Notes under the pieces: generated by a model
Database searches by the model: none
What the model was told of the DNA's origin: nothing
Seen by the model: only the letters and a program-made list of their open reading frames with translations
Program-made: the position numbers and the translations under genes
Shown here: in pieces, positions 3,595-20,490 of the stretch
Numbering within the stretch: position 1 is the stretch's first letter
How the letters are laid out: each line of letters starts with the position of its first letter
NCBI RefSeq assembly: GCF_018122735.1
Contig: NZ_JAGRRD010000001.1
Span: 1,010,536 to 1,046,785, forward strand
Length of the DNA stretch: 36,250 bases
Origin: Azoarcus sp. L1K30
Lineage (GTDB): Bacteria; Pseudomonadota; Gammaproteobacteria; Burkholderiales; Rhodocyclaceae
Direction: 5' to 3'

Positions 3595-3663
3595 ATGGTC
3601 TGCCCCGTACAGAAAACTGCCTCGATCAGCACCACCTCTTCGCTGGAGGTGAGCCGTGGCTGA
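3595..3663 (+). CDS. 22-aa leader ORF overlapping iorA
   Basis: An ATG preceded by AAAGGAGA, the strongest ribosome binding site in this stretch, opens a 22-codon frame beginning MVCPVQKTAS. It ends with TGA at 3661-3663, inside iorA (GTG at 3656), so the two overlap by eight bases in different frames. The geometry suggests translational coupling or a leader peptide controlling iorA. No family was recognised. The codons are rich in Ser and Thr with one Cys, so it is not an obvious amino-acid attenuator. Confidence 0.45.
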   Translation: MVCPVQKTASISTTSSLEVSRG

Positions 3664-5881
3664 ACGTTCGTTCAAGAAGGAAGTCCAGCAACTGCGCATC
3701 CCCGCCGGCGAGGAATTTCGCGGTGAGGGCATCCTCGCCATCACCAAGGGCCTGCTGCAGGCGGGTGTCGGCTATGTCGGCGGCTACCAGGGCTCGCCGA
3801 TCTCGCACCTGATGGATGTGCTGGCGGACGCCAACGAGATCCTCGAAGAGCTCGACATCCACTTCGAGACCAGCGCCTCGGAAGCGACGGCCGCGGCCAT
3901 GCTCGCCGCGTCGGTGATGTATCCGATCCGTGGCGCAGTGACGTGGAAATCCACCGTCGGCACCAACGTCGCCTCCGACGCCTTGGCCAACCTTGCCTCC
4001 GGCGGGGTGACCGGTGGCGCACTGATCATCATCGGCGAGGACTACGGCGAAGGCTCGTCGATCATGCAGGAGCGCTCGCACGCGTTTGCGATGAAGTCCC
4101 AGATGTGGTTGCTGGACCCGCGCCCCAATCTCGAGTCCATCGTCAAATCGGTGGAGGACGGCTTCGAGCTGTCGGAGGCCAGCAACACCCCGGTCATGCT
4201 GCAGGTGCGCATCCGTTCCTGCCATGTCCATGGCCGCTTCATCACCAAGGAGAACAAGCGCCCGCGCTACACGCTGAAGCAGGCGCTGGAAAATCCGGTG
4301 CGCGACACCAGCCGCATCGTGCTGCCACCGGCCTCCTTCGGACACGAGCAGGAGAAGATCCAGCAACGCTGGCCGGCCGCGGTGAAGTTCATCCGCGACA
4401 ATAAGCTCAACGAATTCTTCGACGGCGATTTCAACGACATCGGCCTGATCCTGCAGGGCGGTCTCTACAACGGCGTGATCCGGGCGCTGCAACTGCTCGG
4501 GCTGGCTGACGCCTTCGGCAACAGCCGCATTCCGATGTACGTGATGAACGTCACCTATCCGGTGATCGACGAAGAGGTCGTCCAGTTCTGCGAAGGCAAG
4601 CGCGCCGTGCTGCTGCTCGAGGAAGGCCAACCCGACTACATCGAGCAGAACCTGCACGCCATCCTGCGCAAGGCCGGCGTGTCGACCCATCTGTCGGGCA
4701 AGGATGTGCTGCCGATGGCGGGCGAGTACACCACGGCGGCGATGAAGAACGGCATCGAAAGCTTTCTCCGCGCACGGCAGCCGGACGCGCTGGCCACGCA
4801 TTCTTCGATCGCGGCGGATGAGGCCGGCGAGGCATCGATGGCCGTCCATGTCGGTGCACCGCCCGCCGCGTCCACTCCGCGTCCCGCCGCCGTGCCCATG
4901 ACCTTCCACCCCAAGGTCAAGGCCTTGGCCGAGGTCGTCCCGGCGCGCCCGGCGGGCTTCTGTACCGGCTGTCCTGAGCGGCCGATCTTTGCCGCGATGA
5001 AGCTGGCGCAGGCCGATCTCGGACAGCACCATGTTTCGTGCGACATCGGTTGCCATCTGTTTTCCATCCTGCCGCCGTTCAACCTAGGCGCAACGACGAT
5101 GGGCTACGGCCTGGGCGCCGCATCGAGCTCGGCCTTCAACGTCAAGACCGGCAAGCGTTCGATCTCGGTGATGGGCGATGGCGGCTTCTGGCACAACGGC
5201 CTCACCTCCGGCATCGGCAATGCGGTGTTCAACAAGAACGACGGCGTGATCATCATCGTCGACAACTACTACTCGTCGGCAACCGGCGGCCAGGACATCC
5301 TGTCGTCGCGCGCGGAAAACGCCGACCGTGCAACAAAGAACCCGATCGAGCACGCCATCCGCGGTGCCGGCGTGAAATGGATCCGCACCATCGACCGCAC
5401 CTATGACGTGGCGAAGATGCGCGACACCCTCGAGGAAGCGCTGACCACCACCACCGACGGCCCCAAGGTCATCATTGCCCAGTCCGAATGCATGCTGAAC
5501 AAGCAGCGCCGGATCAAGCCGCTGTTCAACAAGGCGGTGAAGGACGGCAAGCGCATGGTCAAGGAGCGCTTCGGCGTCGATCCCGACGTGTGCACCGGCG
5601 ATCACGCCTGCATCCGGCTGTCCGGCTGTCCTTCGCTGTCCGTCAAGGACAGCGGCGACCCGCTCAAGGAAGACCCGGTCGCCCACGTCGACAACAGCTG
5701 TGTCGGCTGCGGTAACTGCGGCGAAGTCGCGGAGGCGGCCGTGCTGTGCCCCTCCTTTTACCGGGCAGACATCATCCACAACCCGAGTGGCGCCGACCGC
5801 TTCCTCGGCAAGCTCCGTTCGGCCGTCATCGGCTTCCTGCAACGCCGCCGCGCGGCACGCCAGACGCGCTTCGCGCTGTGA
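3656..5881 (+). CDS. iorA: Indolepyruvate (arylpyruvate) ferredoxin oxidoreductase, alpha subunit (IorA)
   Basis: A 741-aa thiamine-diphosphate subunit of a 2-oxoacid:ferredoxin oxidoreductase. The family decarboxylates aryl-2-oxo acids oxidatively with CoA to acyl-CoA, passing electrons to ferredoxin. An N-terminal pyrimidine-binding domain (about 20-200) contains YQGSPISHL. The TDP/Mg motif runs from GDGG (507-510) to DNYY (536-539). The C-terminus has a ferredoxin-like region with Cys646, 652 and 658, then CVGCGNC (682-688) and Cys698, consistent with Fe-S clusters. The start is GTG with GGAGG six bases upstream. It is followed after 14 bases by iorB. In the proposed pathway it would act on isatinate (2-aminophenylglyoxylate) or on indolepyruvate; the sequence cannot decide between these. 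Confidence 0.88.
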   Translation: MAERSFKKEVQQLRIPAGEEFRGEGILAITKGLLQAGVGYVGGYQGSPISHLMDVLADANEILEELDIHFETSASEATAAAMLAASVMYPIRGAVTWKSTVGTNVASDALANLASGGVTGGALIIIGEDYGEGSSIMQERSHAFAMKSQMWLLDPRPNLESIVKSVEDGFELSEASNTPVMLQVRIRSCHVHGRFITKENKRPRYTLKQALENPVRDTSRIVLPPASFGHEQEKIQQRWPAAVKFIRDNKLNEFFDGDFNDIGLILQGGLYNGVIRALQLLGLADAFGNSRIPMYVMNVTYPVIDEEVVQFCEGKRAVLLLEEGQPDYIEQNLHAILRKAGVSTHLSGKDVLPMAGEYTTAAMKNGIESFLRARQPDALATHSSIAADEAGEASMAVHVGAPPAASTPRPAAVPMTFHPKVKALAEVVPARPAGFCTGCPERPIFAAMKLAQADLGQHHVSCDIGCHLFSILPPFNLGATTMGYGLGAASSSAFNVKTGKRSISVMGDGGFWHNGLTSGIGNAVFNKNDGVIIIVDNYYSSATGGQDILSSRAENADRATKNPIEHAIRGAGVKWIRTIDRTYDVAKMRDTLEEALTTTTDGPKVIIAQSECMLNKQRRIKPLFNKAVKDGKRMVKERFGVDPDVCTGDHACIRLSGCPSLSVKDSGDPLKEDPVAHVDNSCVGCGNCGEVAEAAVLCPSFYRADIIHNPSGADRFLGKLRSAVIGFLQRRRAARQTRFAL

Positions 5882-5895
5882 GGAAAGAGACAGAC

Positions 5896-7500
5896 ATGAA
5901 AACCAACATCGTTCTGCACCCCGGCACCCCGATCAAGATCGCCATCCTCGCCATGGGCGGCCAGGGCGGCGGCGTGCTCGCCGACTGGATCGTCGAGATG
6001 GCCGAAAAGGCAGGCTGGTGGGCTCAGACCACATCCGTGCCAGGCGTCGCCCAGCGTACTGGCGCCACCATCTATTACCTCGAACTGCTGCCCGAAAGCG
6101 CAGCCCATGCCGCCGGCAAACCGCCCACGCTGGCCATGATGCCGACCCCGGGCGATGTGGATCTGGTCGTGGCGGCCGAACTGATGGAGGCCGGGCGTGC
6201 GATGCAGCGCGGCCTCGTGTCGCCAGATCGCACCACCTTGATCACCTCCAGCCACCGCAGCTATGCGGTGGGCGAAAAGGCTGCACTGGGCAACGGCATC
6301 GCTGATCCCAACAAGGTCATCGACGCCGGCCGGGAAGCGGCAAAACGCCTGATGTGCTTCGACCTGCAGGAGATGGCGGAAAAGGCCGGCAGCGTAATCT
6401 CCGCCAGCCTGTTTGGTGCTATTGCGGGTGCGGGTGCGCTGCCCTTTCCCCGTGAAGCGTTCGAGGACACCATCCGCCACGGCGGCAAGGGCGCCGACGC
6501 GAGCCTGCGCGCCTTCGCGCTCGGCTTCGACGCTGCGGCAACAGCCCCGGCCGCGCCCGCCCCCATCGACACCACACGCCCGCAACCCGATGTACCCGAG
6601 CGCGCGGCAGATCCTCAGGTGCAAGCGCTGCTGGAAAAGGTCAAAGCGGGCTTCCCGCCCGACACGCAAGGCATGCTCGTCGCAGGCCTGCGGCGGCTAC
6701 TCGACTACCAGGACGTGGAATACGCGGCCGAGTACCTGCAGAAATGCACCGAGCTGCACGCCCTCGATGCCCGCCACGGCGGCGAAGCGAACGACTGGGC
6801 CTTGACCCGCGCCGCAGCCCATCGGCTGGCGGTCGCCATGAGCTACGACGATGTGATCCGGGTCGCCGACCTCAAGACCCGCGGCTCCCGCTTCGAGCGC
6901 GTGCGCCAGGAAGTGAGCGCCAGGACCGACCAGCTGGTCTACACCACCGAGTACATGCATCCACGCCTGGAAGAGATCTGCGGCACCCTGCCCACCGCGC
7001 TCGGGCGCTGGCTGGAACAGTCCAGGGGCGTCGGCGGTTTCATCAAGCGACACATGGAAAAGGGCCGTCGCGTGCAAAGCGGCACGCTGACCTGGTTCCT
7101 GGCGCTGTATGCGCTGTCCGGCATGCGCCGCTTCCGCCGCAGCCTGCTGCGTCACCAGATCGAGACCGCGCAGATCAGGGACTGGCTCGAGCGCGTGACG
7201 CGCCTCGCAGGCAACGGCAACTACGGCCTGGCGGTCGAGGTGCTGCATTGCCGCCGCATCGTCAAGGGCTACAGCGGCACCCATGACCGAGGCGACAAGC
7301 GCTTTGCCAGCCTGATGCGGGCGGCCGACCAGCTCGCCGGACGCAAGGACGGCGCAGACACCTTGCACAAGCTGCTCAAGGCAGCGATGGCGGACGAAGA
7401 AGGTCGCCAGTTGGAAACACAACTCGGCATGCTGATCGGTGCCGGGGCGAGCACGACGGCACCGCACGACGGCGCCAGCTTCAGTCGCCAGGCAGCCTGA
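5896..7500 (+). CDS. iorB: Indolepyruvate ferredoxin oxidoreductase, beta subunit with large C-terminal extension
   Basis: A 534-aa protein. The first 220 residues are the gamma-domain-type subunit of 2-oxoacid:ferredoxin oxidoreductases, with the glycine-rich ILAMGGQGGGVLADW near residues 16-30 and TSVPGVAQRTGATIYY, typical of IorB. Classical archaeal IorB is about 200 aa. Here a Pro/Ala-rich linker (about 220-245) leads into an additional helical domain of nearly 300 residues (contains YTTEYMHPRLEEICGTLP), like the DUF6537-type extension of long proteobacterial homologues. The role of that domain is unknown to me. The gene sits between iorA and the oxygenase reductase in the same operon. 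The start ATG has GAAAGAGA nearby. Confidence 0.85.
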   Translation: MKTNIVLHPGTPIKIAILAMGGQGGGVLADWIVEMAEKAGWWAQTTSVPGVAQRTGATIYYLELLPESAAHAAGKPPTLAMMPTPGDVDLVVAAELMEAGRAMQRGLVSPDRTTLITSSHRSYAVGEKAALGNGIADPNKVIDAGREAAKRLMCFDLQEMAEKAGSVISASLFGAIAGAGALPFPREAFEDTIRHGGKGADASLRAFALGFDAAATAPAAPAPIDTTRPQPDVPERAADPQVQALLEKVKAGFPPDTQGMLVAGLRRLLDYQDVEYAAEYLQKCTELHALDARHGGEANDWALTRAAAHRLAVAMSYDDVIRVADLKTRGSRFERVRQEVSARTDQLVYTTEYMHPRLEEICGTLPTALGRWLEQSRGVGGFIKRHMEKGRRVQSGTLTWFLALYALSGMRRFRRSLLRHQIETAQIRDWLERVTRLAGNGNYGLAVEVLHCRRIVKGYSGTHDRGDKRFASLMRAADQLAGRKDGADTLHKLLKAAMADEEGRQLETQLGMLIGAGASTTAPHDGASFSRQAA

Positions 7501-7545
7501 TCCGCGACAGACGGAAAACACGGGACGAGAGAGGACGACACGCAC

Positions 7546-8523
7546 ATGCAAGCACTGGAACTCATCATCAGCGATATCCGCGCGGAAACGCCGCTGATTC
7601 GCACCCTTCACCTGCGGGCACCGGGGGGGAATTCCCTCCCTCCGTTTTCCCCCGGTGCCCACTTGCGGGTGAGCATACCCGGCCTGGCAGACGCGCGTTG
7701 TTACTCCCTCGTCACCTTTGCGACGGACGCGGCAGGTTTCGATGCGCCGCCATCCTACCGCCTCGGCGTTCGCCTCGAGGCCGACAGCAGTGGCGGCTCC
7801 CGCTACATGCATGGCCTCGCGGTGGGCGATACGATCAGCGTCACCGGTCCGAAGAATGACTTTCCGCTGCACGCCGCGACAGCCGGCGAAGCTGAAACCG
7901 TGCTCATAGCCGGCGGCATCGGCATCACCCCGATCGCATCGATGGCCTCCGCACTGCAGGCCGCAGGACGGCCATGGTCCATGCACTACAGCGGCCGCAG
8001 CATCGATCAGCTCGCCTTCAGGGACGAACTCGCCACGCTCGCCGGTTCCGCATTGCACCTGCACGCAGACGACGATCCTGACACACGACTCGACATCGGC
8101 TCACTGCTCGACCATCTGTCGCCCTCGCAACACCTGTACGTGTGCGGTCCAAAGGGCATGATCGACGCGGTGATCGACGGCGCCAGGACCCGCGGCTGGC
8201 CCGCCTCCCACGTGCATTTCGAACTCTTCGCCGCCGCCGCACCGCTCGCAGGCGACCGACCCTTCGAGCTCGAACTGCGCCAGAGCGGCCAGGTGCTCAC
8301 CGTTCCCGCCGACAAGACCATCCTCGAGGTGCTCGAGGAAGCCGGCTGCGATCCGATGTACGACTGCAAGCGCGGCGAGTGCGGCGTGTGCACGGCCACC
8401 GTGCTCGAGGGCGAGCCGGAACACCGCGACTACTTCCTGTCCGACGCCGAGAAGGCGAGCGGCAAATTGATCCAGATCTGCATCTCGCGGGCCAAATCGG
8501 CCCGTCTGGTGCTCGATCTCTGA
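7546..8523 (+). CDS. Phthalate-dioxygenase-reductase-type electron-transfer protein (FMN / plant-type 2Fe-2S)
   Basis: A 325-aa reductase that carries electrons from NAD(P)H to a Rieske oxygenase. The order of domains is that of phthalate dioxygenase reductase and VanB: an N-terminal flavin barrel with ARCYSLVTFA (about residues 46-55), an NAD(P)-binding domain with GGIGITPIAS (about 123-132), and a C-terminal plant-type 2Fe-2S ferredoxin domain with CKRGECGVCTA and a last cysteine in LIQICISRAK. It lies 17 bases before the Rieske alpha gene, its evident partner. PDR-type reductases usually serve single-subunit oxygenases, so pairing with an alpha/beta enzyme is slightly unusual. By position it would match the protein I recall as IadC in the Variovorax auxin locus. 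Confidence 0.88.
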   Translation: MQALELIISDIRAETPLIRTLHLRAPGGNSLPPFSPGAHLRVSIPGLADARCYSLVTFATDAAGFDAPPSYRLGVRLEADSSGGSRYMHGLAVGDTISVTGPKNDFPLHAATAGEAETVLIAGGIGITPIASMASALQAAGRPWSMHYSGRSIDQLAFRDELATLAGSALHLHADDDPDTRLDIGSLLDHLSPSQHLYVCGPKGMIDAVIDGARTRGWPASHVHFELFAAAAPLAGDRPFELELRQSGQVLTVPADKTILEVLEEAGCDPMYDCKRGECGVCTATVLEGEPEHRDYFLSDAEKASGKLIQICISRAKSARLVLDL

Positions 8524-8540
8524 CCACGAGGGGCGAGCAA

Positions 8541-9854
8541 ATGAGCAAATACCGCGGCAATCCCGACGCCATCAAGGCCCTGGTGCGTGACACCGAAGTC
8601 CACAAGGACACTTACATCGACCCGGAGCTTTTCGAGCTGGAGATGGAGCACCTGTTCGCCAACACCTGGGTCTATGTCGGTCATGCCAGCCAGGTGCCGA
8701 ACAAGGGCGACTACTACACCACCACCGTCGGCACCGAAGACGTGGTCATGGTCCGCCACAGCGACAACAGCGTGCGCGTGCTCTACAACCGCTGCCCGCA
8801 CAAGGGCGTGAAGGTCGCCGGCGAAGTCTGCGGCAACACCGGAAAGTTCTTCCGCTGCCCCTACCACGCATGGACCTTCAAGACCGACGGCAGCCTGCTC
8901 GCCATCCCGCTGAAGAAGGGCTACGAGAACACCGGCTTCGAGTCCTGCGAAGCCAGCCATGGCATGGCCCCGGTGCCCAACGTCAAGGTCTACCGCGATT
9001 TCGTGTTCTGCCGCCTCAATCCGGGCGGCCCCAGCTTCGAGGAATTCTTCGGCCAGTCGCTGTCGACGCTGGACAACATGGTCGACCGCTCCCCCGAAGG
9101 CAGGCTCGAAGTCGCCGGCGGCGTATTGCGCTACATGCACAACTGCAACTGGAAGATGCTGGTCGACAACCAGACCGACACCTGCCATCCCATGGTCGCC
9201 CACGAATCCTCCGCCGGCACCGCGGTGCGCGTCTGGAACGAAGCCCCCGAGGGCACGCCGAAACCGATGGCGGTCGAACTCTTCGCTCCGTTCATGTCGC
9301 CCTACGAGTTCTTCGAGAACATGGGCATTCGCGTATGGGAGAACGGCCACGGCCACACCGGCGTCTCCGACTCCATCCACGCCGCCTATTCCGCGGTACC
9401 CGGCTACTGGGAACAGATGGTCGCCGCCTACGGCGAAGAGCGCGCCCACCAGATTCTCGGTGACACCCGCCACAACACGGTGTATTTCCCCAACATCATG
9501 GTCAAGGGCCCGATCCAGACCCTGCGCCTGTTCAAGCCCATCGCGGTGGACAAGACCCTGGTCGAATCCTGGACCTTCCGCCTTGTCGGCGCACCCGACC
9601 TGCTGCTCGAGCGCACCGCCATGTACAACCGCCTGATCAACGCCCCGACCTCGGTGGTCGGCCATGACGACCTCGAAATGTACGAACGCGCACAGGAAGG
9701 TCTGCATTCGCGCGGACGCGACTGGATCAACATCGCCCGCCTTTACGACCCCGTAGAGAAGGGGCAGAAGAACGTCGTCACCAACGGCACCAACGAAATG
9801 CAGATGCGGCAGCAGATGCGCGCATGGCTGCAGTTCATGACGGAGAGCATGTAA
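8541..9854 (+). CDS. Aromatic-ring-hydroxylating (Rieske) dioxygenase, large subunit
   Basis: A 437-aa catalytic subunit. The Rieske 2Fe-2S ligands are Cys85 and His87 (NRCPHKG) with Cys106 and His109 (CPYHAW). The mononuclear iron site is Asp213-x2-His216-x4-His221 (TDTCHPMVAH), where Asp213 is the expected bridge between Rieske and iron centres of adjacent subunits. The N-terminal DPELFELEMEHLFANTWVYVGH is typical of the family. The ATG has a purine-rich GGGGCGAGC upstream. With the reductase upstream and the beta subunit downstream it forms a complete oxygenase. The substrate is not determined by motif. Operon context favours an indole-acetic-acid-type substrate, with phenylpropanoate as the alternative. 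Confidence 0.92.
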   Translation: MSKYRGNPDAIKALVRDTEVHKDTYIDPELFELEMEHLFANTWVYVGHASQVPNKGDYYTTTVGTEDVVMVRHSDNSVRVLYNRCPHKGVKVAGEVCGNTGKFFRCPYHAWTFKTDGSLLAIPLKKGYENTGFESCEASHGMAPVPNVKVYRDFVFCRLNPGGPSFEEFFGQSLSTLDNMVDRSPEGRLEVAGGVLRYMHNCNWKMLVDNQTDTCHPMVAHESSAGTAVRVWNEAPEGTPKPMAVELFAPFMSPYEFFENMGIRVWENGHGHTGVSDSIHAAYSAVPGYWEQMVAAYGEERAHQILGDTRHNTVYFPNIMVKGPIQTLRLFKPIAVDKTLVESWTFRLVGAPDLLLERTAMYNRLINAPTSVVGHDDLEMYERAQEGLHSRGRDWINIARLYDPVEKGQKNVVTNGTNEMQMRQQMRAWLQFMTESM

Positions 9855-9925
9855 GGAAGAAAGGCCACCTGGCTGACTGCCAGCCCGACGACCAATTGGA
9901 CGATATTGAGATGGGTGTGGCACGG

Positions 9926-10032
9926 CAACTCCCTCCCCTTCAAGGGGAGGGCTGGGGTGGGGATGGGTTTTCGTTGGCGACGCACAAGACCCATCCCCCT
10001 CCTGACCTCCCCCTTGAAGGGGGAGGAACCAG
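9926..10032. repeat. GC-rich dispersed intergenic repeat, copy 1 (nested hairpins)
   Basis: Between the two oxygenase subunit genes lies a structured element. The left arm has a near-perfect hairpin CCCTCCCCTT / AAGGGGAGGG, followed by GGGGTGGGGATGGGT. The right arm has ACCCATCCCCCTCC followed by CCTCCCCCTT / AAGGGGGAGG. The arms are complementary to each other, so the whole folds as one long stem carrying smaller stems. It matches copy 2 at 14705-14937. It is probably a REP/MITE-like element and may modulate alpha:beta mRNA stability. The rest of 9855-10138 shows no gene. Confidence 0.75.
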
Positions 10033-10138
10033 GTGCCGACACTGACTTCACGCCCAAGTCTGCCGAGTTAATCGCAGCACGAACCGTCACGCAGGAACAC
10101 CGGACAGCAGCAACACCCGAACAAGGATCAATCAAGCC

Positions 10139-10621
10139 ATGACCGCCATCACCGAAAAGACCCTGACCGACTTCGTCTACGCCGAAGCCCGCATGCTCGA
10201 CGAACAGCGCTTCGAAGACTGGCTCACCCTCTTCACCGACGACGCCTACTACTGGATGCCGCTCGCACACGACCAGCAGGACCCCAGGCTGCACACTTCG
10301 CTCCTGTACGAGGACAAGCTGTTGCTGCGCGTGCGCATCGAGCGCCTCTCCGGCCAGCGCACCTTCTCGCAACAGCCGAAGAGCCGCTGCCACCACCTGC
10401 TACAGGCCCCCAGCGTCGAATCGTCAGACCCGGCAAAGGGCGAGTACATCGTCCGCACGGCTTTCCACTACACCGAGACCCGCCTCGACAAGCAGGTCAT
10501 CTATGTCGGCTGGAGCACACACCATCTCGTCGACGTGGACGGCGCCCTCAGAATCCGGCTCAAGCGTGTCGATCTGGTCAACTGCGATGCGGCCTTCGGC
10601 AACATCCAGCTCTTCATGTAA
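10139..10621 (+). CDS. Aromatic-ring-hydroxylating dioxygenase, small (beta) subunit
   Basis: A 160-aa protein of the SnoaL/NTF2-like fold of ring-hydroxylating dioxygenase beta subunits, which give structure to the alpha3beta3 hexamer. Diagnostic features are EARMLDEQRFEDWLTLFTDDAYYWMPL near the N-terminus, the Arg/Glu-rich middle LLYEDKLLLRVRIERL and the C-terminal IRLKRVDLVNCD. The length is normal for benzoate- and anthranilate-type beta subunits. It is separated from its alpha gene by 284 bases holding a repeat, an unusually long gap for subunits of one enzyme. The downstream ligase begins 13 bases after the stop. Confidence 0.88.
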   Translation: MTAITEKTLTDFVYAEARMLDEQRFEDWLTLFTDDAYYWMPLAHDQQDPRLHTSLLYEDKLLLRVRIERLSGQRTFSQQPKSRCHHLLQAPSVESSDPAKGEYIVRTAFHYTETRLDKQVIYVGWSTHHLVDVDGALRIRLKRVDLVNCDAAFGNIQLFM

Positions 10622-10634
10622 GCGGGAGCACGAC

Positions 10635-12269: not shown

Positions 12270-13453
12270 GTGGATCTCAAAGGCCGCGCTTGGGCTACGA
12301 CGGCGTCGCCGTCGTGACGCCGGTCACCATTCCCTATGTGCGCTACTCCACGCACAGCGCGCACTGGTGGCTGGGGCGCGCACTTGGCGCACTGATCCGC
12401 GGTGCGGGCATCGCGAAGTCGGACGTCGACGGCGTCTGCGTCTCCAGCTTCACCCTGGGGCCCGACACCGCCGTCGGCCTGATGCAGCACCTCGGCATGA
12501 GCCCGCGCTGGCTCGACCATATCCCCATGGGCGGCGCCTCGGGCGTAGTCGCAGTGCGCCGCGCCGCGCGGGCGGTGCAGGCGGGCGATGCCGAGGTCGT
12601 TGCCTGCATCGCTGGCGACACCAACCAGGTCGACTCCTTCCGCAACACCGTCAGCCAGTTTTCGCGCTTCGCCCAGGACGCGGTGTACCCCTACGGTGCG
12701 GGCGGCCCCAACGCCAGCTTCGCGCTGCTCACCGACTACTACATGAAGCACTATGGCGCCACCCGCGAGGATTTCGGCAAGCTGTGCGTCGCCCAGCGCG
12801 ACAACGCGCTGAAGAACCCTCATGCATTGATGAAAAAGCCGCTCACCCTGGCCCAGTACATCGACGCCAAGCCGATCACCGATCCGATCCATCTCTTCGA
12901 CTGCGTCATGCCCTGTGCTGGCGCCGAAGGCTATCTGGTGATGACCGAAGACCGCGCGAGGTCGCTCGAGCTGCCTTTCGTGCGCATCCGCTCCACCATC
13001 GAACGCCACAACGCCTTTCCCGAAGACCCGATCCAGTTTCGCGGCGGCTGGGCGATGGACAAGGACGCACTGTACGCCCACGCCGACGCCGCACCCGAGG
13101 ATATCGACTTTCTCGAAACCTATGACGATTACCCGGTGATCAACATGATGCAGTTCGAGGATCTCGGTTTCTGCGCCAAGGGAGAGGCCGCGGCCTTCGT
13201 GCGCAAGCACAGCTTTACCATCGATGGCGACTTCCCCTTCAACACCTCCGGTGGCCAGCTCTCTGTCGGCCAGGCCGGCGCCGCGGGTGGCTATCTCGGC
13301 TTTGTCCAGGCCTTGCGTCAACTCACCGACAGCGCGGGCAGGACCCAGGTATCGGGCGCGAAGCTGGGACTGGTGTCCGGATTCGGCATGATCAATTACG
13401 ACCGCGGCCTGTGCTCCGGCGCAGCGCTGCTCGAACGGGGACATGCCTTATGA
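12266..13453 (+). CDS. Thiolase-superfamily protein lacking thiolase catalytic residues; candidate acyl-CoA retro-aldolase
   Basis: A 395-aa SCP2-type thiolase-fold protein. The place of the nucleophilic cysteine reads GGASG (89-93, Ala91). The first catalytic-histidine region (usually HDxF) reads TYDDYP (285-290), and the usual GHPxGxxG reads GQAGAAGG (335-342). All three thiolase functions are therefore missing, while tyrosines 286 and 289 are present. This is the pattern of the Ltp2-type steroid side-chain aldolases, which need a zinc-ribbon/DUF35 partner; here that partner domain is encoded immediately downstream. Translation is coupled on both sides by ATGA overlaps. Retro-aldol cleavage of a tertiary beta-hydroxyacyl-CoA is inference. 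A purely structural role, as in paired thiolase complexes, is the alternative. Confidence 0.78.
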   Translation: MSGSQRPRLGYDGVAVVTPVTIPYVRYSTHSAHWWLGRALGALIRGAGIAKSDVDGVCVSSFTLGPDTAVGLMQHLGMSPRWLDHIPMGGASGVVAVRRAARAVQAGDAEVVACIAGDTNQVDSFRNTVSQFSRFAQDAVYPYGAGGPNASFALLTDYYMKHYGATREDFGKLCVAQRDNALKNPHALMKKPLTLAQYIDAKPITDPIHLFDCVMPCAGAEGYLVMTEDRARSLELPFVRIRSTIERHNAFPEDPIQFRGGWAMDKDALYAHADAAPEDIDFLETYDDYPVINMMQFEDLGFCAKGEAAAFVRKHSFTIDGDFPFNTSGGQLSVGQAGAAGGYLGFVQALRQLTDSAGRTQVSGAKLGLVSGFGMINYDRGLCSGAALLERGHAL

Positions 13454-14694
13454 GCGCACCTCTCGTCAAACCGAAGAAGAAGAACCCGGTTGAACGCACC
13501 CGGCTGCCGACGCGCCCGCCCGCCTCCCGCAGCCGCAGCGCCCAGGGCCTTACCCGCGCGGCGGCCGAAGGCCGGTTCGAGATGCAGGTGTGTTCCGAAT
13601 GCAATACGCTTCAGTACCCGGCGCGCGAAGTGTGCTGCTCCTGTCTCTCCGAACATCTGCAATGGAAACCGGTGGACAACCGCGGCGAACTGATCGCCAC
13701 CACCACCCTGCGCCACAGCAACGACCTGTATTTCCGCGAGCGCCTGCCGTGGCGCGTCGGCACCGTGAAGATGGCGGCCGGCCCGGTTGTGGTCGCCCAC
13801 ATTCATGAAGACTGCGTGGCCGACGGCCCGGTCCGGCTTGCGCTCAAGCTCGACCGCAGCGGCCAGGCCGTGCTCCATGCCCTGCCTGAAAAGGACACCC
13901 CGAACATGAACGATGCGGCCCAGCTGCGCGAATCCGCCTGCGACCCCAAGTTTCGCCGCGTGCTCGTCACCGACGGCAAATCCGCAATGGGACAAGCGGT
14001 CGCAAAGGCGATGCTCGACGCCGGCGCAAGTGCGGTCTTCCTCGGCGACCCGACAAGGTGGAAGACCGTCGCCGCGTTCGACACCCTGGCCGCCGACCCC
14101 CGCGTACAGATCGTCGAGCTCGACGTCACCGATACCGATTCGGTCGACCGCGTCGCGGCCTCGATCGGGGGCAAGGTCGAAATCCTGGTCAATACGGCGT
14201 CCTACCTGCGCGACGGCGGCATTCTCGGGCGCAAGGACGTCATCCTCGCCCGCGATGCGATGGAGGTGAACGTGCTCGGCCTGATGCGTCTCGCGCAAGC
14301 CTTCGGTCCCGGCATGTGCTTCCGCGCAGCCGACGGCACCAACAGCGCAGTGGCCTGGGTCAACATCCTGTCCATCCACGCCTTGGCCGCCCTGCCCGCG
14401 CGCGGCGCCTGGTCGGCCTCGATGGCCGCAGCCCTGTCAGCGGCGCAGACCCTGCGCGCAGAACTCGGCGGTGCCGGCGTGCGCGTGCTGAACGTTTTTC
14501 CCGGTCCGATCGACGAAGAATGGGAACAGCTTACCCCGCCGCCCAAGCTTGCCCCCTCGGCGGTCGCCAAGGCCATCGTCAAGAGCCTGCAGGACGGCGT
14601 CGAGGATGCCTATGTCGGCGACATCGCGGAGGAGATCCGCGAGCGACTGCGCGAGAACCACAAGGCCGTGGAGCGGGAGTTGGGCAACCAGTAG
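13450..14694 (+). CDS. Zinc-ribbon/OB (DUF35-like) domain fused to a degenerate short-chain dehydrogenase
   Basis: A 414-aa two-domain protein. After a basic, Pro-rich tail (1-45), residues 48-65 form a zinc ribbon (Cys48-x2-Cys51, Cys62-x2-Cys65), followed by an OB-fold (about 70-145) ending in LHALPEKD, as in DUF35 partners of thiolase-like enzymes. A Met/Asn linker at 153 opens an SDR domain (165-414). Its nucleotide loop is TDGKSAMG instead of TGxxxGIG, and the catalytic Tyr-x3-Lys is Trp321-x3-Met325, although Ser308 remains. It should not be catalytically active by the usual SDR mechanism. The fusion ties the aldolase partner to a dehydrogenase-like scaffold. An intact SDR is encoded two genes on and could pair with it, as the inactive/active SDR pair BbsC/BbsD does. 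Confidence 0.8.
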   Translation: MSAPLVKPKKKNPVERTRLPTRPPASRSRSAQGLTRAAAEGRFEMQVCSECNTLQYPAREVCCSCLSEHLQWKPVDNRGELIATTTLRHSNDLYFRERLPWRVGTVKMAAGPVVVAHIHEDCVADGPVRLALKLDRSGQAVLHALPEKDTPNMNDAAQLRESACDPKFRRVLVTDGKSAMGQAVAKAMLDAGASAVFLGDPTRWKTVAAFDTLAADPRVQIVELDVTDTDSVDRVAASIGGKVEILVNTASYLRDGGILGRKDVILARDAMEVNVLGLMRLAQAFGPGMCFRAADGTNSAVAWVNILSIHALAALPARGAWSASMAAALSAAQTLRAELGGAGVRVLNVFPGPIDEEWEQLTPPPKLAPSAVAKAIVKSLQDGVEDAYVGDIAEEIRERLRENHKAVERELGNQ

Positions 14695-14704
14695 GAAGCG
14701 AGTG

Positions 14705-14937
14705 AACTCCCTCCCCTTCAAGGGGGCGGAGCAGGGAGTTCGACGAGCACCGCTCGTCGCCTGCGTAGCGGCATAGCGCAGCGGAGACTCCCGGGTTGGG
14801 GTGGGGATGGGTTCAACAGACGCCGAAGTAACCCATCCCCCTCCTAACCAGTAGTCTCGGCGTAGCCTCGCCGCTACGCCGGCAGCGAGCAGTGCTCGCT
14901 GAAACCCCGGCTACACCCCCCTTGAAGGGGGAGGAAC
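14705..14937. repeat. GC-rich dispersed intergenic repeat, copy 2 (enlarged, multi-hairpin)
   Basis: This element fills most of the 305-base gap before the cyclase gene. It begins and ends like copy 1 (AACTCCCTCCCC at the left, CTTGAAGGGGGAGGAAC at the right) and shares the GGGGTGGGGATGGGTT and ACCCATCCCCCTCCT core. It is about twice as long, because two extra blocks with their own palindromes are inserted: GACGAGC/GCTCGTC at the left, and CGGCGTAGC/GCTACGCCG and CAGCGAGCA/TGCTCGCTG at the right. It is likely a mobile repeat that has taken up a second one. Confidence 0.72.
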
Positions 14938-14999
14938 AGGACCTTCGAAATCGACGTTCGATAAGGCATCGCCCGAGCACCCGAAATGGAGAACGACAC

Positions 15000-15785
15000 T
15001 TGACCACCCCCATCCTCACCCAATTCCTCGCCGAGCTGCTGTCGGGCCGCCTGAAACTGGTCGATCTCACCCAGACCCTGGCACCCGAGTTCCCCACCAT
15101 CGTGCTGCCGCCCGAGTTCGGCCAGGCCTGGCCTTTCCGCATCGAAGAGATCTCGCGCTACGACGAGCGTGGCCCGGCCTGGTACTGGAACAACTTTTCC
15201 ATGTCCGAACACACCGGTACCCACTTCGACGCGCCCATCCACTGGATCAGCGGCAAGGACCAGCCCGACAACACGGTGGACTCGATCCCGGTGGAGAACT
15301 TCATCGCCAGCGCCTGCGTGATCGACGTATCCGCCGAGAGTGCGGAAAACCCCGACTTCCTGCTCACCGTGGACTATGTGAAGGCCTGGGAAGAGCAGCA
15401 TGGCCGCATTCCCGAGCGCGCGTGGGTGTTGTTGCGCACCGACTGGTCCAAGCGCACCACACCGAAGGAATACCTCAACATGGCCGAGGACGGCGCCCAT
15501 TCGCCCGGCCCCGACGCCGAGGTCGTGCCGTGGCTGATCCGGGAACGAAACGTGCATGGTTTCGGGACCGAATCGGTCGGCACAGACGCCGGCCAGGCCC
15601 ATCATCTGAACCCGCCCTACCCCTGCCACTACTTCATGCACGGCAACAACCGCTACGGCCTCCAGTGCCTGACCAATCTGGATCAGCTGCCGCCCCAGGG
15701 GACGGTGATCTTCGCCGCACCGCTCAAGATCCGCAACGGCTCCGGCAGCCCGCTGCGGGTGCTGGCGCTGGCGCCTGCGGCTTGA
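15000..15785 (+). CDS. Cyclase / isatin hydrolase / kynurenine formamidase family metal-dependent hydrolase
   Basis: A 261-aa enzyme of the Mn2+-dependent amidase/cyclase family. The signature HTGTHFDAPIHW (71-82) supplies the metal ligands and base through His71, His75, Asp77 and His81. The C-terminal part contains PLKIRNGSGSPLRVLALAP, which resembles isatin hydrolases. These open the cyclic amide of isatin to isatinate; kynurenine formamidases open an N-formyl group. The TTG start is preferred because GGAGA lies eight bases upstream and the upstream extension lies in the repeat. No ATG opens the frame. It is followed 11 bases later by the SDR. In an indole-acetate pathway isatin hydrolysis is the natural role; that is inference. 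Confidence 0.82.
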   Translation: MTTPILTQFLAELLSGRLKLVDLTQTLAPEFPTIVLPPEFGQAWPFRIEEISRYDERGPAWYWNNFSMSEHTGTHFDAPIHWISGKDQPDNTVDSIPVENFIASACVIDVSAESAENPDFLLTVDYVKAWEEQHGRIPERAWVLLRTDWSKRTTPKEYLNMAEDGAHSPGPDAEVVPWLIRERNVHGFGTESVGTDAGQAHHLNPPYPCHYFMHGNNRYGLQCLTNLDQLPPQGTVIFAAPLKIRNGSGSPLRVLALAPAA

Positions 15786-15796
15786 GGACGACGCCC

Positions 15797-16525
15797 ATGA
15801 GCGAACGAATGATTGCAGTCGTGACCGGTGGCTCGGCGGGGATCGGTGCCGACATCTGCAAGCGCATGCTGGAAGACGGCTACGATGTCGTATCAATGGC
15901 CCGGCGCGCACCGGATTGGAGCCATCCGCGCCTCACCACCGTGCAGGTGGACCTGCTCGATGCAGTCGCGACCGAACAGGCCGCGCTGGAGATCGCGCGT
16001 GATTTTCCGGTCACCCACTTCGTCCACAACGCCGGGGTGATCTGGCCAAAGCTGCTCGGTGAGGTCAAGCTCGACGAGTTGCAGGGTCTCACCCAGATCC
16101 ACCTCGGCGCTGCCATCAGCCTGATGCAGGCGGTGCTGCCGGGCATGGAGGCACGCGGCTTCGGTCGCGTGGTGCTGATGTCCTCGCGCGGGGCCCTGGG
16201 GTTGCCAACGCGCACCGCCTATTCGGCCACCAAGGCCGGCATGATCGGCATGGCCCGCACCTGGGCGCTGGAACTCGCGCCCAAGGGTATCACCGTCAAT
16301 GTGGTCGCGCCCGGCCCGATCCAGACCGACATGTACTACGCCGTCATCGAGGCCGGCAGCGAGCGCGACAAGGCGCTGGCGGCCAGTATCCCGGTCCGTC
16401 GTGTCGGTCGCGCCGACGACGTCACTCGCGCGGTGATGTTCTTCGCCGACCCGCAGAACAGTTTCGTCACCGGCCAGACGCTCTATGTCTGCGGCGGTGC
16501 AAGTGTAGGAAGCATCACCATCTGA
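15797..16525 (+). CDS. Short-chain dehydrogenase/reductase (intact catalytic residues)
   Basis: A 242-aa classical SDR with a complete active site: TGGSAGIG (10-17) for NAD(P), HNAG (77-80), Ser130 in MSSRGALG, and Tyr142-x3-Lys146 (YSATKAG). The C-terminal NVVAPGPIQTDMY and TGQTLYVCGG are typical of FabG-like enzymes. The start has GAGGA upstream. It is the last enzyme gene before the transporter and contrasts with the Tyr- and Lys-less SDR domain encoded at 13450. Possible roles are oxidation of dioxindole to isatin, a hydroxyacyl-CoA step, or partnership with the inactive SDR domain. The sequence does not distinguish these. Confidence 0.85.
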   Translation: MSERMIAVVTGGSAGIGADICKRMLEDGYDVVSMARRAPDWSHPRLTTVQVDLLDAVATEQAALEIARDFPVTHFVHNAGVIWPKLLGEVKLDELQGLTQIHLGAAISLMQAVLPGMEARGFGRVVLMSSRGALGLPTRTAYSATKAGMIGMARTWALELAPKGITVNVVAPGPIQTDMYYAVIEAGSERDKALAASIPVRRVGRADDVTRAVMFFADPQNSFVTGQTLYVCGGASVGSITI

Positions 16526-16586
16526 ACCACGCCGCAGTCAAAGAAACCTTCATCCGCAGTACGCCTCAACCACGGAGAACGCCGTC

Positions 16587-17738
16587 ATGATGTTGAAGAA
16601 AATCCCCGCTGCCATTGCACTTGCCACCCTTGCCTCCTTTGCCGGCAGCGCGCTGGCACAGGTCAAGGTCGGCGTCATTTCGTCGGCCACCGGTCCCACC
16701 GCGCTGGTCGGCATCCCGCAGAAGAACACCGTGCCGCTGCTGCCGACCAAGGTGGGCGACCTGAACGTCGAGTACATTGCGCTCGATGATGCATCGGACT
16801 CCACTGCCTCGGTCACCGCCGTCAAGAAGCTGCTGAGCGAAGAGAAGGTCGACGCCATCATCGGGCCCTCGGGTTCGCCTAACGCCATGGGCGCAATCCA
16901 GTTCGTCGCCGAAGCCGGGGTGCCGATGCTGGCGCCGGTCGGCACCGCCGCCGTCGTGCTGCCGATGACCGATCAGAAGAAGTGGGTGTTCAAGACCACC
17001 CAGAACGACGATATCATCGCCAAGGCGCTCGCCGATCATATGGTCAAGGCTGGGGTGAAGACGCTCGGTCTGATCGGTACCGCCGATCCCTACGGTGAAA
17101 ACTGGGCCAAGGTGATGGGCGGTCTTGCCGAGGCCAACGGCATCAAGATCGTGGCCAGCGAGAAGTTCCAGCGCTCGGACAGTTCGGTTACCGGCCAGGC
17201 GCTGAAGATTCTCGGCGCCAAGCCGGACGCCGTGCTGGTGACAGCGCCGGGTGGCCCGTCGGTGCTGCCGCAGACCACGCTGTTCGACATGGGCTACAAG
17301 GGCCAGATGTACCAGACCCACGGCGCCGCCCTGCCCGACTTCCTCAAGCTCGGCGGCAAGAAGGTCGAAGGCACCATTCTCGCCGCCAGCCTGATGCTGG
17401 TGCTGCCGGAAATCGCCGACAGCAACCCGTCGAAGAAGGTCGCGGCCGACTATATCGCCGCCTACGAGAAGCTGCATGGCAACAAGCCGGCCACCTTTGG
17501 TGCCAATGTCTATGACGCCGGCCTGCTGCTGAAGCAGGCCATCCCGATCGCCGCAAAGGCCGGCAAGCCGGGTACGGCAGAATTCCGCGCCGGTCTGCGC
17601 GACGCACTGGAGCAGACCAAGGAGCTGGTCGGCACTCAGGGCGTGTACAACATGACGCCGGCCGACCACAGCGGCTTCGACGAGCGTGGCCGCGTCCTGA
17701 TCACGGTGAAGGACGGCAACTGGACGCTGCTGAAGTAA
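16587..17738 (+). CDS. Branched-chain-amino-acid-type ABC transporter substrate-binding protein (LivK-like)
   Basis: A 383-aa periplasmic binding protein of the leucine-binding (Peripla_BP_6) family. A signal peptide covers residues 1-25 (positively charged start, hydrophobic core, cleavage after SALA before QVKVG). The mature protein opens with VKVGVISSATGPTALVG and contains IIGPSGSPNAMGAIQFVAEAG, as in Liv-type receptors. Betaproteobacteria use such receptors widely for aromatic acids, so in this operon the ligand is more likely the pathway substrate than an amino acid. It is followed by 276 bases (17739-18014) with an imperfect hairpin at 17768-17792 and no gene. That is typical of a receptor gene expressed more strongly than its permease. 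Confidence 0.87.
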   Translation: MMLKKIPAAIALATLASFAGSALAQVKVGVISSATGPTALVGIPQKNTVPLLPTKVGDLNVEYIALDDASDSTASVTAVKKLLSEEKVDAIIGPSGSPNAMGAIQFVAEAGVPMLAPVGTAAVVLPMTDQKKWVFKTTQNDDIIAKALADHMVKAGVKTLGLIGTADPYGENWAKVMGGLAEANGIKIVASEKFQRSDSSVTGQALKILGAKPDAVLVTAPGGPSVLPQTTLFDMGYKGQMYQTHGAALPDFLKLGGKKVEGTILAASLMLVLPEIADSNPSKKVAADYIAAYEKLHGNKPATFGANVYDAGLLLKQAIPIAAKAGKPGTAEFRAGLRDALEQTKELVGTQGVYNMTPADHSGFDERGRVLITVKDGNWTLLK

Positions 17739-18014
17739 GCCGCGCCGGACAGCCACACATCCATCACGCCGCCCGTCTGCCGACGGCGCGGCAATGAGGC
17801 AGAGCGACTGCCGGACGCCGGTCCGGTGGTTTCACCTGCCCTGATGTCCCGGAACAGCCGGGCAACGCCAGGACGACCCCTGCGGTGCCCGCTTAGCCGG
17901 CGGATTCGCTCACCCGCGAATTTCGCAGCACCGGGATACTTGGCGCCAAACGCGCTGCGCTGCCGAACGCCTTGCCTCGAAGCAGGGTGGCGGCCCCCGA
18001 CAACAGGACGCACC

Positions 18015-19052
18015 ATGAATCTGCAGATCGCAATGTTTCTCGGGCAGGACGGGATCACCAACGGCGCTGTCTATGCGCTGCTGGCCCTGTCCATCCTGCT
18101 CGTATTCACCGTCACCCGGGTACTGTTCATTCCGCAGGGCGAGTTCGTGACCTTTGGCGCGCTTACCATGGCCACGCTGCAGGCAGGCCATGCAACCGGC
18201 CTGGTCTGGCTGCTCGCCGGAATGGCCGTAGTCGAAGCGACGATCGACCTTCTTGAACGGTTCCGCCGCCAGGGCAGCATCCGCCCGCCTGCCAGGCTCC
18301 TGATCAAGCTGATCTATCCTTTCATACTCGCGCTGGTGCTATACACCTTGCCATTGGCAAGCCTGTCGATGCCGCTCCAGGCTGCGCTCACATTCGCGCT
18401 CGTGGTGCCGCTGGGGCCGCTGTTCTACCGCCTTTTCTATCAACCCATCGCAACCGCGCCGGTACTGGTTCTGCTAATCGTCTCGATCGCGGTGCATGTC
18501 GCAATGGTCGGCATCGGATTGCTGATCTTCGGTCCGGGCGGCGCCAAGACCCTGCCATTTTCCGACGCCAGCTTCCCGCTCGGTCCGATCACCCTCAACA
18601 GTCAGACGCTGTGGGTCATCGCCGCCTCGCTCGGACTGATCGTCGCGCTCTACCAGTTCTTCGAGCGCACGGTGTATGGCAAAGCGCTGCGCGCCACCGC
18701 GATCAACCGTGTCGGTGCGCGCCTGATGGGCATCTCGCCGATATTCGCAGGCAAGGCGAGCTTTTTTCTTGCCGCCTTCATCGGCACGCTGTCGGGCATC
18801 CTGATTGCACCGATCACCACGATCTATTACGACTCCGGTTTCATCATCAGCCTCAAGGGCTTCATCGGTTCGATCATCGGCGGGCTGGTGAGTTACCCGG
18901 TGGCAGCGCTCGGCGCCCTGCTGGTAGGCATGATCGAAGCCTTCTCGGCCTTCTGGGCCAGTACTTACAAGGAAGTCATCGTGTTCACCCTGATCATCCC
19001 CTTCCTGTTGTGGCGCTCGCTGACGGTCCGTCACGTGGAGGAAGAAGAATGA
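18015..19052 (+). CDS. ABC transporter permease (LivH-like)
   Basis: A 345-aa inner-membrane permease of the LivH family with about eight hydrophobic segments. It starts [25 protein letters not shown], the usual first membrane helix, and contains [19 protein letters not shown], the coupling-helix region that contacts the ATPase, and [20 protein letters not shown] near the end. The ATG at 18015 fits the family N-terminus; the open frame upstream has no family counterpart. Its TGA overlaps the livM ATG as ATGA. The product itself looks intact, although the rest of the transporter downstream is not. Confidence 0.87.
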
Positions 19053-19921
19053 GCGCCCGTCTTCCCATCGAGCCTGCCGTACCCGACGCCAGCCGAAGCG
19101 CGTCTGCGCAACTGTCACCGCGCCTCGTGCTGGGCGTTTTCCTCGGCGTGCTGTTGATCGCGCCGCTGGTGCTGCCGCCGTTCTACGTCACGCTGCTCAA
19201 CTACATCGGGCTGTACGCCATGGTGGCGCTGGGGCTGGTGCTGCTCACCGGGGTCGGGGGCTTGACCAGCTTCGGCCAGGCTGCCTTCGTCGGTCTGGGG
19301 GCCTACACCACCGGGGTGCTCACCACCGCCACCGATCTGCCGGGCTGGCTGGCCTGGCTGGGCGGCTCGCCGTGGCTGGCGCTGGTGGTCGGGCTGGTGT
19401 TTACCGCGGTGGTGGCCATCGTGCTCGGCTCACTCACCTTGAAGCTGTCGGGTCACTTCCTGCCGCTGGGCACGATCGCCTGGGGCATCTCACTGTACTT
19501 CCTGTTCGGCACCATGGAGACGCTCGGGGGGCACACCGGCCTGACCGGCATCCCGCCGATCTCGATCTTCGGCTGGACGCTCGACCAGGGCGAGGAGATC
19601 TTCTACCTGATCTGGGTCTTCCTGCTGTCCGCGGTGCTGACCACGCAAAACCTGCTCGACTCGCGCGAAGGCCGGGCGATCCGCGCCCTGAAGGGCGGCA
19701 TGGTGATGGCCGAGGCGATGGGGGTGAACACCTCGCGCTCGCGCATGATCATCTTCGTCATCGCCGCCCTGCACGCCTGCGCCTCGGGCTGGCTGTACGC
19801 GCACATGCAGCGCTTCGTGAACCCGACTCCGTTCGGGCTGCACATCGGCATCGAGTACCTGTTCATGGCCGTGGTCGGCGGGGCCGGTCATGTGTGGGGG
19901 GCGCTGGTCGGGGCGGCTCTC
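19049..19921 (+). pseudogene. ABC transporter permease livM, 3'-truncated and joined out of frame to livF
   Basis: About 290 codons of a LivM-type permease: hydrophobic segments from residue 25 on, [31 protein letters not shown], the coupling region [21 protein letters not shown], and [17 protein letters not shown]. After that last motif the family would continue through the final helices. Here similarity stops at about 19910-19920 and the DNA continues as livF in another frame. The frame itself stays open to 20455, but its translation becomes Arg/Gly-rich shadow sequence. The C-terminal permease part, the livG ATPase and the start of livF are all missing. Either the importer is broken in this strain or the assembly has lost about 1 kb or more. 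Confidence 0.8.
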
Positions 19922-20440
19922 GGCCATCATGGGGGTGCTCGGCTCCAGGGGCCAGGTGGCTTTCGACGGCAGTATCGAGTCGGTCCCCGAAGTCGAGCGC
20001 ATGGTCGCGCGCGGCATGAATCTGGTGCCCGAGAAGCGCGAGCTCTTCGGCGAGATGACGGTAGAGGACAACCTCACGCTGGGCGCGTTCCAGCGCTACC
20101 GCTCGGGCAAGCGCGATCAGGCGCAGACCATGGAGGAGGTCTACACCCTGTTCCCGCGCCTGAAGGAGCGCCGCGGCCAGCTCGCCGGCACGCTGTCGGG
20201 CGGCGAGCGCCAGATGCTGGCGGTGGGGCGCGCGCTGATGGCCAAGCCCAAGCTGCTGATGCTCGACGAACCGAGCCTGGGGCTGGCGCCGCTGATCGTG
20301 CGCGAGATCTTCCGCATCATCGCCGAGCTGCGCCGGCGCGGGGTGTCGATCCTGCTGGTGGAGCAGAACGCCCGTGCCGCGCTGCAGGTGGCCGACTACG
20401 CCTATGTGCTCGAGACCGGCACGATCGCGATGGAAGGGCC
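19917..20440 (+). pseudogene. ABC transporter ATPase livF, truncated at both ends
   Basis: The frame contains [18 protein letters not shown], then a LivF-type ATPase body: [17 protein letters not shown], the ABC signature [15 protein letters not shown], Walker [15 protein letters not shown] and the switch-region [11 protein letters not shown]. The Walker A loop, which should lie just before LSAIMG, is absent because of the junction with livM. At the other end the frame leaves the family after [10 protein letters not shown], where 15-20 residues should follow, and runs into opposing etfB DNA. Without Walker A it could not hydrolyse ATP. No start codon with a ribosome binding site is present for it. 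Confidence 0.82.
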
Positions 20441-20490
20441 ACCTTCACGTTGTAGTCAACCACGCGTTTGACCGGGACCAGAATCTTCAT
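20441..20490 (-). pseudogene. etfB: etfB 5' fragment (electron transfer flavoprotein beta subunit, first codons only)
   Basis: On the minus strand an ATG at 20490, with GGAG upstream, opens [17 protein letters not shown], the highly conserved N-terminus of EtfB. After 17 codons the match ends at about 20441, where the opposing livF fragment begins. The gene lies 43 bases downstream of the CoA-transferase and gcdH, whose electron acceptor is ETF, so its position is natural. The body of etfB and any etfA are absent. Together with the livM/livF junction this marks a second break within 530 bases. Confidence 0.78.

Follow-up and report, generated by a model that had tools for sequence, protein, structure and literature searches.

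A candidate retro-aldolase of thiolase fold in an iad-type operon for indole-3-acetate breakdown in Azoarcus sp. L1K30

We analysed a stretch of 36,250 nucleotides from Azoarcus sp. L1K30 (genome of 4.98 Mb), hereafter the window, whose positions serve as coordinates unless stated otherwise. Its plus strand carries, from 3656 to 16525, an operon that Pfam and NCBIfam scans resolve into iorA, iorB, a reductase, the alpha and beta subunits of a Rieske oxygenase, a coenzyme A (CoA) ligase, a thiolase-fold protein, a DUF35 protein fused to a short-chain dehydrogenase (SDR) domain, an isatin hydrolase and a further SDR. This is the order iadABCDEFGHIJ of Variovorax-type genomes. The operon is thus of an already known kind, iad, and extends it to a host group that the literature consulted does not name. 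It is quite probable that the operon breaks down indole-3-acetate (IAA) aerobically, by a retro-aldol cleavage that IadG and IadH would carry out to give isatin, and then by way of isatinate to anthraniloyl-CoA. With a little less assurance, we propose that IadG and IadH form a thiolase-fold retro-aldolase for a non-steroid substrate, with a Tyr-Asp pair in a YDDY motif and a DUF35 domain fused to a dead SDR, which would release isatin and acetyl-CoA without redox chemistry. Relative to the papers found, the novelty lies in this cleavage step, where IadGH is predicted to be an aldolase like Sal and Ltp2 with a different acid residue. Among the papers listed in searches of an open-access library, none connects DUF35 or a retro-aldol reaction with iad.

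The best solved relative of IadG is CtSal, the bile-acid aldolase of Comamonas testosteroni (9MYR). It scores 157 bits in phmmer and 226 bits in a profile search, where the next entry reaches 179, and it ranks first in a Foldseek search with the predicted model of IadG (mean predicted local distance difference test, pLDDT, of 85), at a template-modelling (TM) score of 0.85. Gly90 at the thiolase nucleophile site, the motif Y286-D-D288-Y289, Q331 and Q336 are present in all 91 rows counted. On the pairwise alignment, counted by hand, Gly90, Q331 and Q336 stand opposite Gly89, Gln347 and Gln352 of Sal, and YDDY stands where Sal has YDCY. Sal likewise has Gly at the nucleophile site and uses Tyr302 and Cys304 of YDCY, the latter perhaps activated by Gln347 and Gln352, and Ltp2 has the motif YDHF and a second tyrosine, Tyr344 (PMC12329534). 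A thiolytic reaction by IadG is unlikely, because Gly90 is invariant at the nucleophile site. A retro-aldol reaction, in contrast, fits the chemistry of dioxindole-3-acetate, whose beta carbon bears a tertiary hydroxyl and no keto group. In the manner in which Sal and Ltp2 act on steroid side chains, IadG and the DUF35 part of IadH would split dioxindole-3-acetyl-CoA to yield isatin and acetyl-CoA, with Tyr286 as the putative base and Asp288 replacing the acid Cys304 of Sal. Asp288 as the acid is conjecture, since YDDY differs from both characterised motifs and replacements of Cys304 in Sal abolish activity. IadG has what marks these aldolases in lacking the nucleophilic cysteine, in having the tyrosine of the YDxx motif and in its adjacent DUF35 partner. 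Its second acid would be neither the Cys of Sal nor the separate Tyr of Ltp2, with Asp288 in 91/91 rows and Gln336 at the Tyr344 site, so we say that it may work like Sal and Ltp2 and file it as neither.

The IadG counts cover 91 of 96 natural rows. The five others (L035-L039) were left out as more distant; they read YDDY in L035, YDDF in L037-L039 and YDCY in L036, and L036 and L038 were omitted from alignment A3. The three YDDF paralogues are perhaps more aldolases.

The fusion in IadH was overlooked by an earlier note made from the letters of this DNA, which had paired the thiolase-fold protein with a DUF35 protein; DUF35 is there, as part of the fusion. The predicted model of IadH has a mean pLDDT of 89.5, and its SDR half matches 5u4s, a structure bound to nicotinamide adenine dinucleotide phosphate (NADP), with TM 0.92-0.94 by target length. 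An active SDR would carry TGxxxGxG and the Ser-Tyr-Lys triad. The window protein reads TDGKSAMG in place of the Gly motif, W in place of Tyr and M in place of Lys. Across relatives the first Gly of the motif occurs in 0/82 rows and Tyr and Lys occur together in three; in IadJ, taken as control, the Gly motif is found in 61/61 rows and Tyr and Lys in 60, with one gap. The SDR half of IadH is thus probably non-catalytic, as far as its residues tell. Among 12 Variovorax-type and related rows (11 of 12 extra regions, L144 being too short, plus L033), the first Gly is Asp in all, and the Tyr site holds Phe in 11 and Tyr in one (L150, with Lys). Moreover, the DUF35 protein has no SDR domain in six loci (L045 and L046, both Alcaligenes, L057, L068, L072 and L098), where the sole SDR recognised nearby by BLAST is IadJ-like. 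The counts cover 82 of 90 rows, the eight rows with no SDR domain being left out (six clear cases, L106, cut by a contig end, and L027, unclear). Six of the 96 loci, L035-L039 and L091, gave no IadH match over threshold.

The next enzyme agrees with isatin as the product. IadI is identical to the isatin hydrolase 5nmp at 168 of 257 positions (65%) and keeps the metal-motif stretch HTGTHFDAP.HW; it would open isatin to isatinate. Kynurenine formamidase was rejected as an identity for IadI, which reaches 32 bits with the arylformamidase model, whose cut-off is 223. To see what travels with IadG, we took the best 80 of at least 576 loci with IadG relatives, a sample that leans to close relatives and whose counts say what accompanies IadG, not how frequent iad is. 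A DUF35 match was found in 79 of the 80 and a cyclase match in 77. In all 50 loci with 10 kb on both sides (full loci), the gene for the thiolase-fold protein has the DUF35 gene as its neighbour and a cyclase of the isatin hydrolase type is present, so that the assembly of the operon is not due to chance. The trio of IadG, DUF35 and isatin hydrolase is kept in all ten full loci with no Rieske match over threshold. One strand of L032 (1268-12910) encodes, in operon-like succession, a ligase, IadG, IadH, IadI, an anthraniloyl-CoA-hydroxylase-type enzyme, a second ligase and a 3-hydroxyacyl-CoA dehydrogenase. No Rieske or Ior match lies within 20 kb, which implies that dioxindole-acetate, or an acid related to it, has some other source there.

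The first oxidation can be placed by homology. IadD of the window scores 649 bits with IadD of Variovorax paradoxus (9o71; 61% identity) and 164 bits with the next family, phenylpropionate dioxygenase, so that its closest characterised relative is not one active on phenylpropanoids. It keeps 13 of the 14 positions that PMC10374108 names for the Rieske cofactor, the iron and the IAA pocket, L211 being replaced by Q. According to a preprint that studied iad by genetics and isotope tracing, IadCDE adds one oxygen only, and the product, named dioxindole-3-acetic acid, is completed by IadJ, an SDR (PMC12633357). The isatin route is described in PMC9613470, which also reports isatin itself in V. paradoxus. 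By homology, IadCDE would mono-oxygenate IAA and IadJ would oxidise the hydrate to dioxindole-3-acetate. IadF would convert this to its CoA ester. The window IadJ has the complete Gly motif and Ser-Tyr-Lys. The earlier note had identified the oxygenase correctly and had it make dioxindole-3-acetate by itself, for which, given the roles assigned in PMC12633357, the Rieske enzyme is insufficient; its scheme left out the second, intact SDR, iadJ. On the whole its proposal is supported: the families lie where it put them, on one strand, and collinearity with Variovorax-type iad, the pocket residues of IadD and the match to isatin hydrolase all speak for aerobic IAA breakdown by way of isatin. The retro-aldol step, offered there as an inference, gains independent support in sequence and fold from the Sal-type aldolase. 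"Cys-less", its word for the thiolase-fold protein, holds for the nucleophile position, and there are cysteines elsewhere in the protein. A second pair of Rieske alpha and beta genes lies beside binding protein genes in the Variovorax-type and related loci L140-L143, L033, L146, L147 and L149-L151, the alpha subunits being 49-53% identical to that of the window.

The gene order recurs in Variovorax-type loci (L140-L143 and L033, with IadD 87-95% identical to that of V. paradoxus CL014) and in Achromobacter loci (e.g. L048, L049, L051). The window IadG is 85-89% identical to those of Azoarcus, Cognatazoarcus and Aromatoleum loci (L040-L044). The window thus has the C-D-E-F-G-H-I-J order expected of an iad-type IAA degradation locus, and it has iadA and iadB, described as exclusive markers of iad-like loci (PMC9613470).

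At the exit of the route, IadAB (IorAB) would convert isatinate and CoA by oxidative decarboxylation into anthraniloyl-CoA and CO2, and the host would take on the product through an enzyme of the 2-aminobenzoyl-CoA monooxygenase/reductase type. The evidence is indirect and comes from a downstream gene in the host and its relatives and from a strain of the preprint, read anew. The host gene, 71 kb from iadD and next to SDR, enoyl-CoA hydratase and acyl-CoA dehydrogenase genes, encodes 803 residues that score 1373 bits (cut-off 1078) with NF006101, the bifunctional salicylyl-CoA hydroxylase family; because the model is named for salicylyl-CoA, we infer the use on anthraniloyl-CoA. Azoarcus evansii has a 2-aminobenzoyl-CoA pathway whose monooxygenase/reductase is a homodimer of 170 kDa (PMC4539516), and a related route is known from Arthrobacter (PMC3534580). 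Of 31 genomes that have IadG or IadD, 29 exceed the cut-off of NF006101 (22 of the 31 with IadG, nine with an IadD match of at least 71% identity alone), versus 19 of 31 control genomes with no IadG or IadD match in the search that listed them (Fisher P 0.005, with controls unmatched for genome size or genus and genomes that are not independent). The two remaining genomes score 1053 bits over the full length (L032) and 918 bits over positions 1-697 of 768. In nine of the 31 the gene lies at most 34 kb from iadD or iadG. The host and the 30 other genomes thus all have this hydroxylase-type gene in full or almost full length, consistent with anthraniloyl-CoA as the exit product. The contrast with the controls is softened by the nine genomes that entered by IadD alone, by five of the 31 (G615, G551, G464, G567 and G741) in which the DNA retrieved shows IadG-H-I and neither a Rieske nor an Ior match, and by the looser threshold of E 0.001, at which the model matches 31/31 genomes in both sets, partial matches to shorter flavoenzymes included. 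It is conceivable, though doubtful, that IorAB serves another 2-oxo acid and that isatinate loses CO2 to give 2-aminobenzaldehyde or is otherwise oxidised, with free anthranilate as product. Indeed, a V. paradoxus strain with iadC-K2, taken to lack iadAB, restores anthranilate (PMC12633357), so that IadAB is not strictly needed in that strain. Yet the same strain accumulates strong C8H7NO3 and C7H7NO (PMC12633357), formulas that, as we read them, fit isatinate and 2-aminobenzaldehyde backing up, as if IorAB normally removed isatinate. Also at odds with a separate role for IorAB are the presence of iorA in 33 of the 40 full loci where a Rieske gene was matched, compared with none of the ten others, and the CoA-ester sink gene in the 29 genomes. 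An exit through anthranilate dioxygenase is not supported, the best match in the host genome to the AndAc model, the dioxygenase model searched genome-wide, being 367 bits against a cut-off of 750. In the region L175 of the host genome, near 950 kb, a block at 10327-13657 of that region with a StyA-like monooxygenase (194 bits, cut-off 550), an SDR and a FadL-type channel adjoins the anthraniloyl-CoA-hydroxylase-type cluster, possibly an indole or styrene route.

The 2025 preprint words the cleavage differently. There, IadG is a ketothiolase and IadH is annotated as alcohol dehydrogenase; acting with IadF, the two are proposed to remove the acetyl side chain reductively, leaving C8H7NO2 for IadI (PMC12633357). 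Several observations weigh against a retro-aldol cleavage and for this scheme, or at least blur the distinction. C8H7NO2, placed after IadFGH, accumulates in the iadI mutant and in the iadCDEFGH-J-K2 strain of V. paradoxus (PMC12633357), and it is the formula of dioxindole, not of isatin. IadH keeps Lys in all 12 Variovorax-type and related rows and, in the larger set, Lys in 35/82, Tyr in 16/82 and Ser in 78/82. In 5u4s, the nearest SDR of solved structure, the alignment puts Leu in the place of Tyr, yet the structure contains NADP, and because of this IadH may bind a cofactor without catalysis. For IadG, Sal leads in fold by a small margin, the remaining 49 listed rows, among them true thiolases, having TM 0.75-0.83; a Cys lies two to four residues past Gly90 in 6/91 rows, and Gln336 falls on the Tyr344 site of Ltp2 in the pairwise alignment but not in the MAFFT alignment. 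YDDY is unlike YDCY and YDHF, and changing Cys304 of Sal to Ala, Ser or His kills activity (PMC12329534). We nevertheless consider the scheme of the preprint unlikely. It assigns the side-chain cleavage from gene annotation only, and an alcohol dehydrogenase does not fit the sequence of IadH that well, with the first Gly of its cofactor motif missing throughout and the domain itself absent in six loci. A ketothiolase would need the nucleophilic Cys that is Gly in every IadG row. The likeness of IadI to isatin hydrolase also speaks against the scheme. Dioxindole in the iadI mutant might be isatin reduced by the host; isatin itself was detected in V. paradoxus (PMC9613470). Gly90, YDDY and the degenerate SDR favour a redox-free retro-aldol reaction over a ketothiolase plus an alcohol dehydrogenase.

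Uptake tells a different story from catabolism. The LivM permease runs directly into a C-terminal LivF remnant in another frame; no LivG was found at the ABC (ATP-binding cassette) transporter and the N-terminal part of LivF is missing too. The break is either a real deletion or an assembly fault, and uptake through this transporter is probably lost. The earlier note had called the operon complete, which holds for the enzymes and not for uptake, because the transporter is broken. The binding protein was rejected as a confirmed IAA binder, since three of the five IAA-site positions of IadK2 that could be placed are changed (W172, N126 and Y311; S104 and R199 are kept, T125 is unplaceable). These changes, L211 to Q in IadD, and the genes upstream on the minus strand (121-2852: FAA hydrolase, LigB-type extradiol dioxygenase, alpha/beta hydrolase), which we take to resemble phenylpropionate-like meta-cleavage genes, might suggest that the substrate of the operon is a phenylpropanoid or an indole acid other than IAA and that it shares only the general iad architecture. 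This is very improbable given the 13 positions kept in IadD, the isatin hydrolase and the same gene order in Achromobacter, a genus whose IAA-degrading strains carry iad-like operons (PMC11630574).

The features of the operon are collected in Table 1. The single promoter match is suggestive only, the scan finding one where shuffled sequences gave a mean of 2.7. Loci for aerobic IAA degradation have a MarR gene or two, with one named exception that has LysR (PMC9613470), for which reason a MarR gene is not strictly defining. Here, the three upstream open reading frames searched gave no Pfam match, and no PF01047 match lies within the window, the nearest one, below cut-off, being at genome position 1052540 (PF01047 was searched, PF12802 was not). 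Downstream, 20534-24041 holds a succinate-glutarate-type CoA-transferase (564 bits, cut-off 750), an acyl-CoA dehydrogenase and a LysR gene, probably a glutarate block. We rejected it as part of the operon, as it is glutarate-type and caiB is not beside iad in L040-L044, where the fetched DNA stops near or before the expected place of lysR1.

Table 1. Positions in the window of the operon genes and adjoining features
Feature	Position	Strand	Basis
Sigma-70-like promoter match TTGACA-17-TAAAGT, single, 5' of the operon	3479..3507	+	consensus scan
Leader open reading frame (ORF), 22 codons, Shine-Dalgarno-like AGGAG, overlaps iadA start	3595..3663	+	direct sequence reading
iadA/iorA, thiamine pyrophosphate-dependent 2-oxoacid oxidoreductase alpha, two C-terminal cysteine clusters	3656..5881	+	IOR_alpha 275 bits, under cut-off 651
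iadB/iorB, POR domain and DUF6537	5896..7500 (approx.)	+	NF006179 721 bits, cut-off 348
iadC, Fer2/NAD-binding reductase of Rieske oxygenase	7546..8523	+	family match; collinear with iadC
iadD, Rieske oxygenase alpha	8541..9854	+	61% identity to V. paradoxus IadD (9o71)
iadE, Rieske oxygenase beta	10139..10621	+	7yls/9o71 beta 195 bits, next 54
iadF, AMP-forming CoA ligase	10635..12269	+	longest ORF 10503-12269; TTG at 10635 a guessed start
iadG, thiolase-fold protein, nearest Sal/Ltp2 aldolases	12266..13453	+	sequence, profile and fold comparisons
iadH, DUF35 (Zn ribbon and OB, ~13558-13839) and degenerate SDR domain (~13957-14520)	13450..14694	+	
iadI, isatin hydrolase	15000..15785	+	65% identity to 5nmp
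iadJ, SDR dehydrogenase, complete motifs	15797..16525	+	motif alignment
Periplasmic binding protein	16587..17738	+	40% identity to IadK2
Branched-chain-type permease (LivH-like)	17826..19052	+	
LivM-like permease, C-terminus cut off	19109..19921	+	
LivF-like ATPase C-terminal remnant, other frame	19944..20459	+	

Auxin breakdown of the iad type lets some root bacteria restore the growth of plant roots, and work is under way to transfer it to other strains by engineering (PMC12633357). Should IadGH prove to be an aldolase that needs no redox chemistry, and IadAB to produce anthraniloyl-CoA, then the nine-gene cassette used for this, which begins with iadC, is short of the natural last step. The central reaction of auxin breakdown would then be assigned differently from what has been published, and a group of aldolases known from steroids would gain an indole branch.

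The closest known system is the iad locus of V. paradoxus CL14, with which the window shares the content and order of iadA-J, the IadD pocket and the isatin hydrolase. It differs from it in its broken ABC transporter, in having no detected MarR neighbour and in its binding protein, which reaches only 40% identity with IadK2. Iad-like loci are also known from Achromobacter, Alcaligenes and Bradyrhizobium. Compared with the isatin hydrolases 5nmp and 4j0n, IadI shows no notable difference. Ltp2-ChsH2, the steroid aldolase with DUF35 (6OK1), cleaves a tertiary beta-hydroxyacyl-CoA to a ketone; IadG shares its thiolase fold with a DUF35 partner, whereas Ltp2 has YDHF and, in the pairwise alignment, Tyr344 where IadG has Gln336. 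The benzoylsuccinyl-CoA thiolase BbsAB (7pxp) shares the thiolase fold and has a DUF35-type partner (PMC12329534), but the IadG profile gives it 123 bits against 226 for Sal. With Sal-Shy of Comamonas testosteroni (9MYR), IadGH has in common the thiolase fold, the DUF35 partner, Gly at the nucleophile site, the catalytic Tyr and both Gln. IadG is, however, only 28% identical to Sal in the fold alignment and has Asp for Cys304; the DUF35 domain of IadH is fused to a degenerate SDR, that of Shy to a MaoC hydratase; and the substrate of IadG would be a non-steroid.

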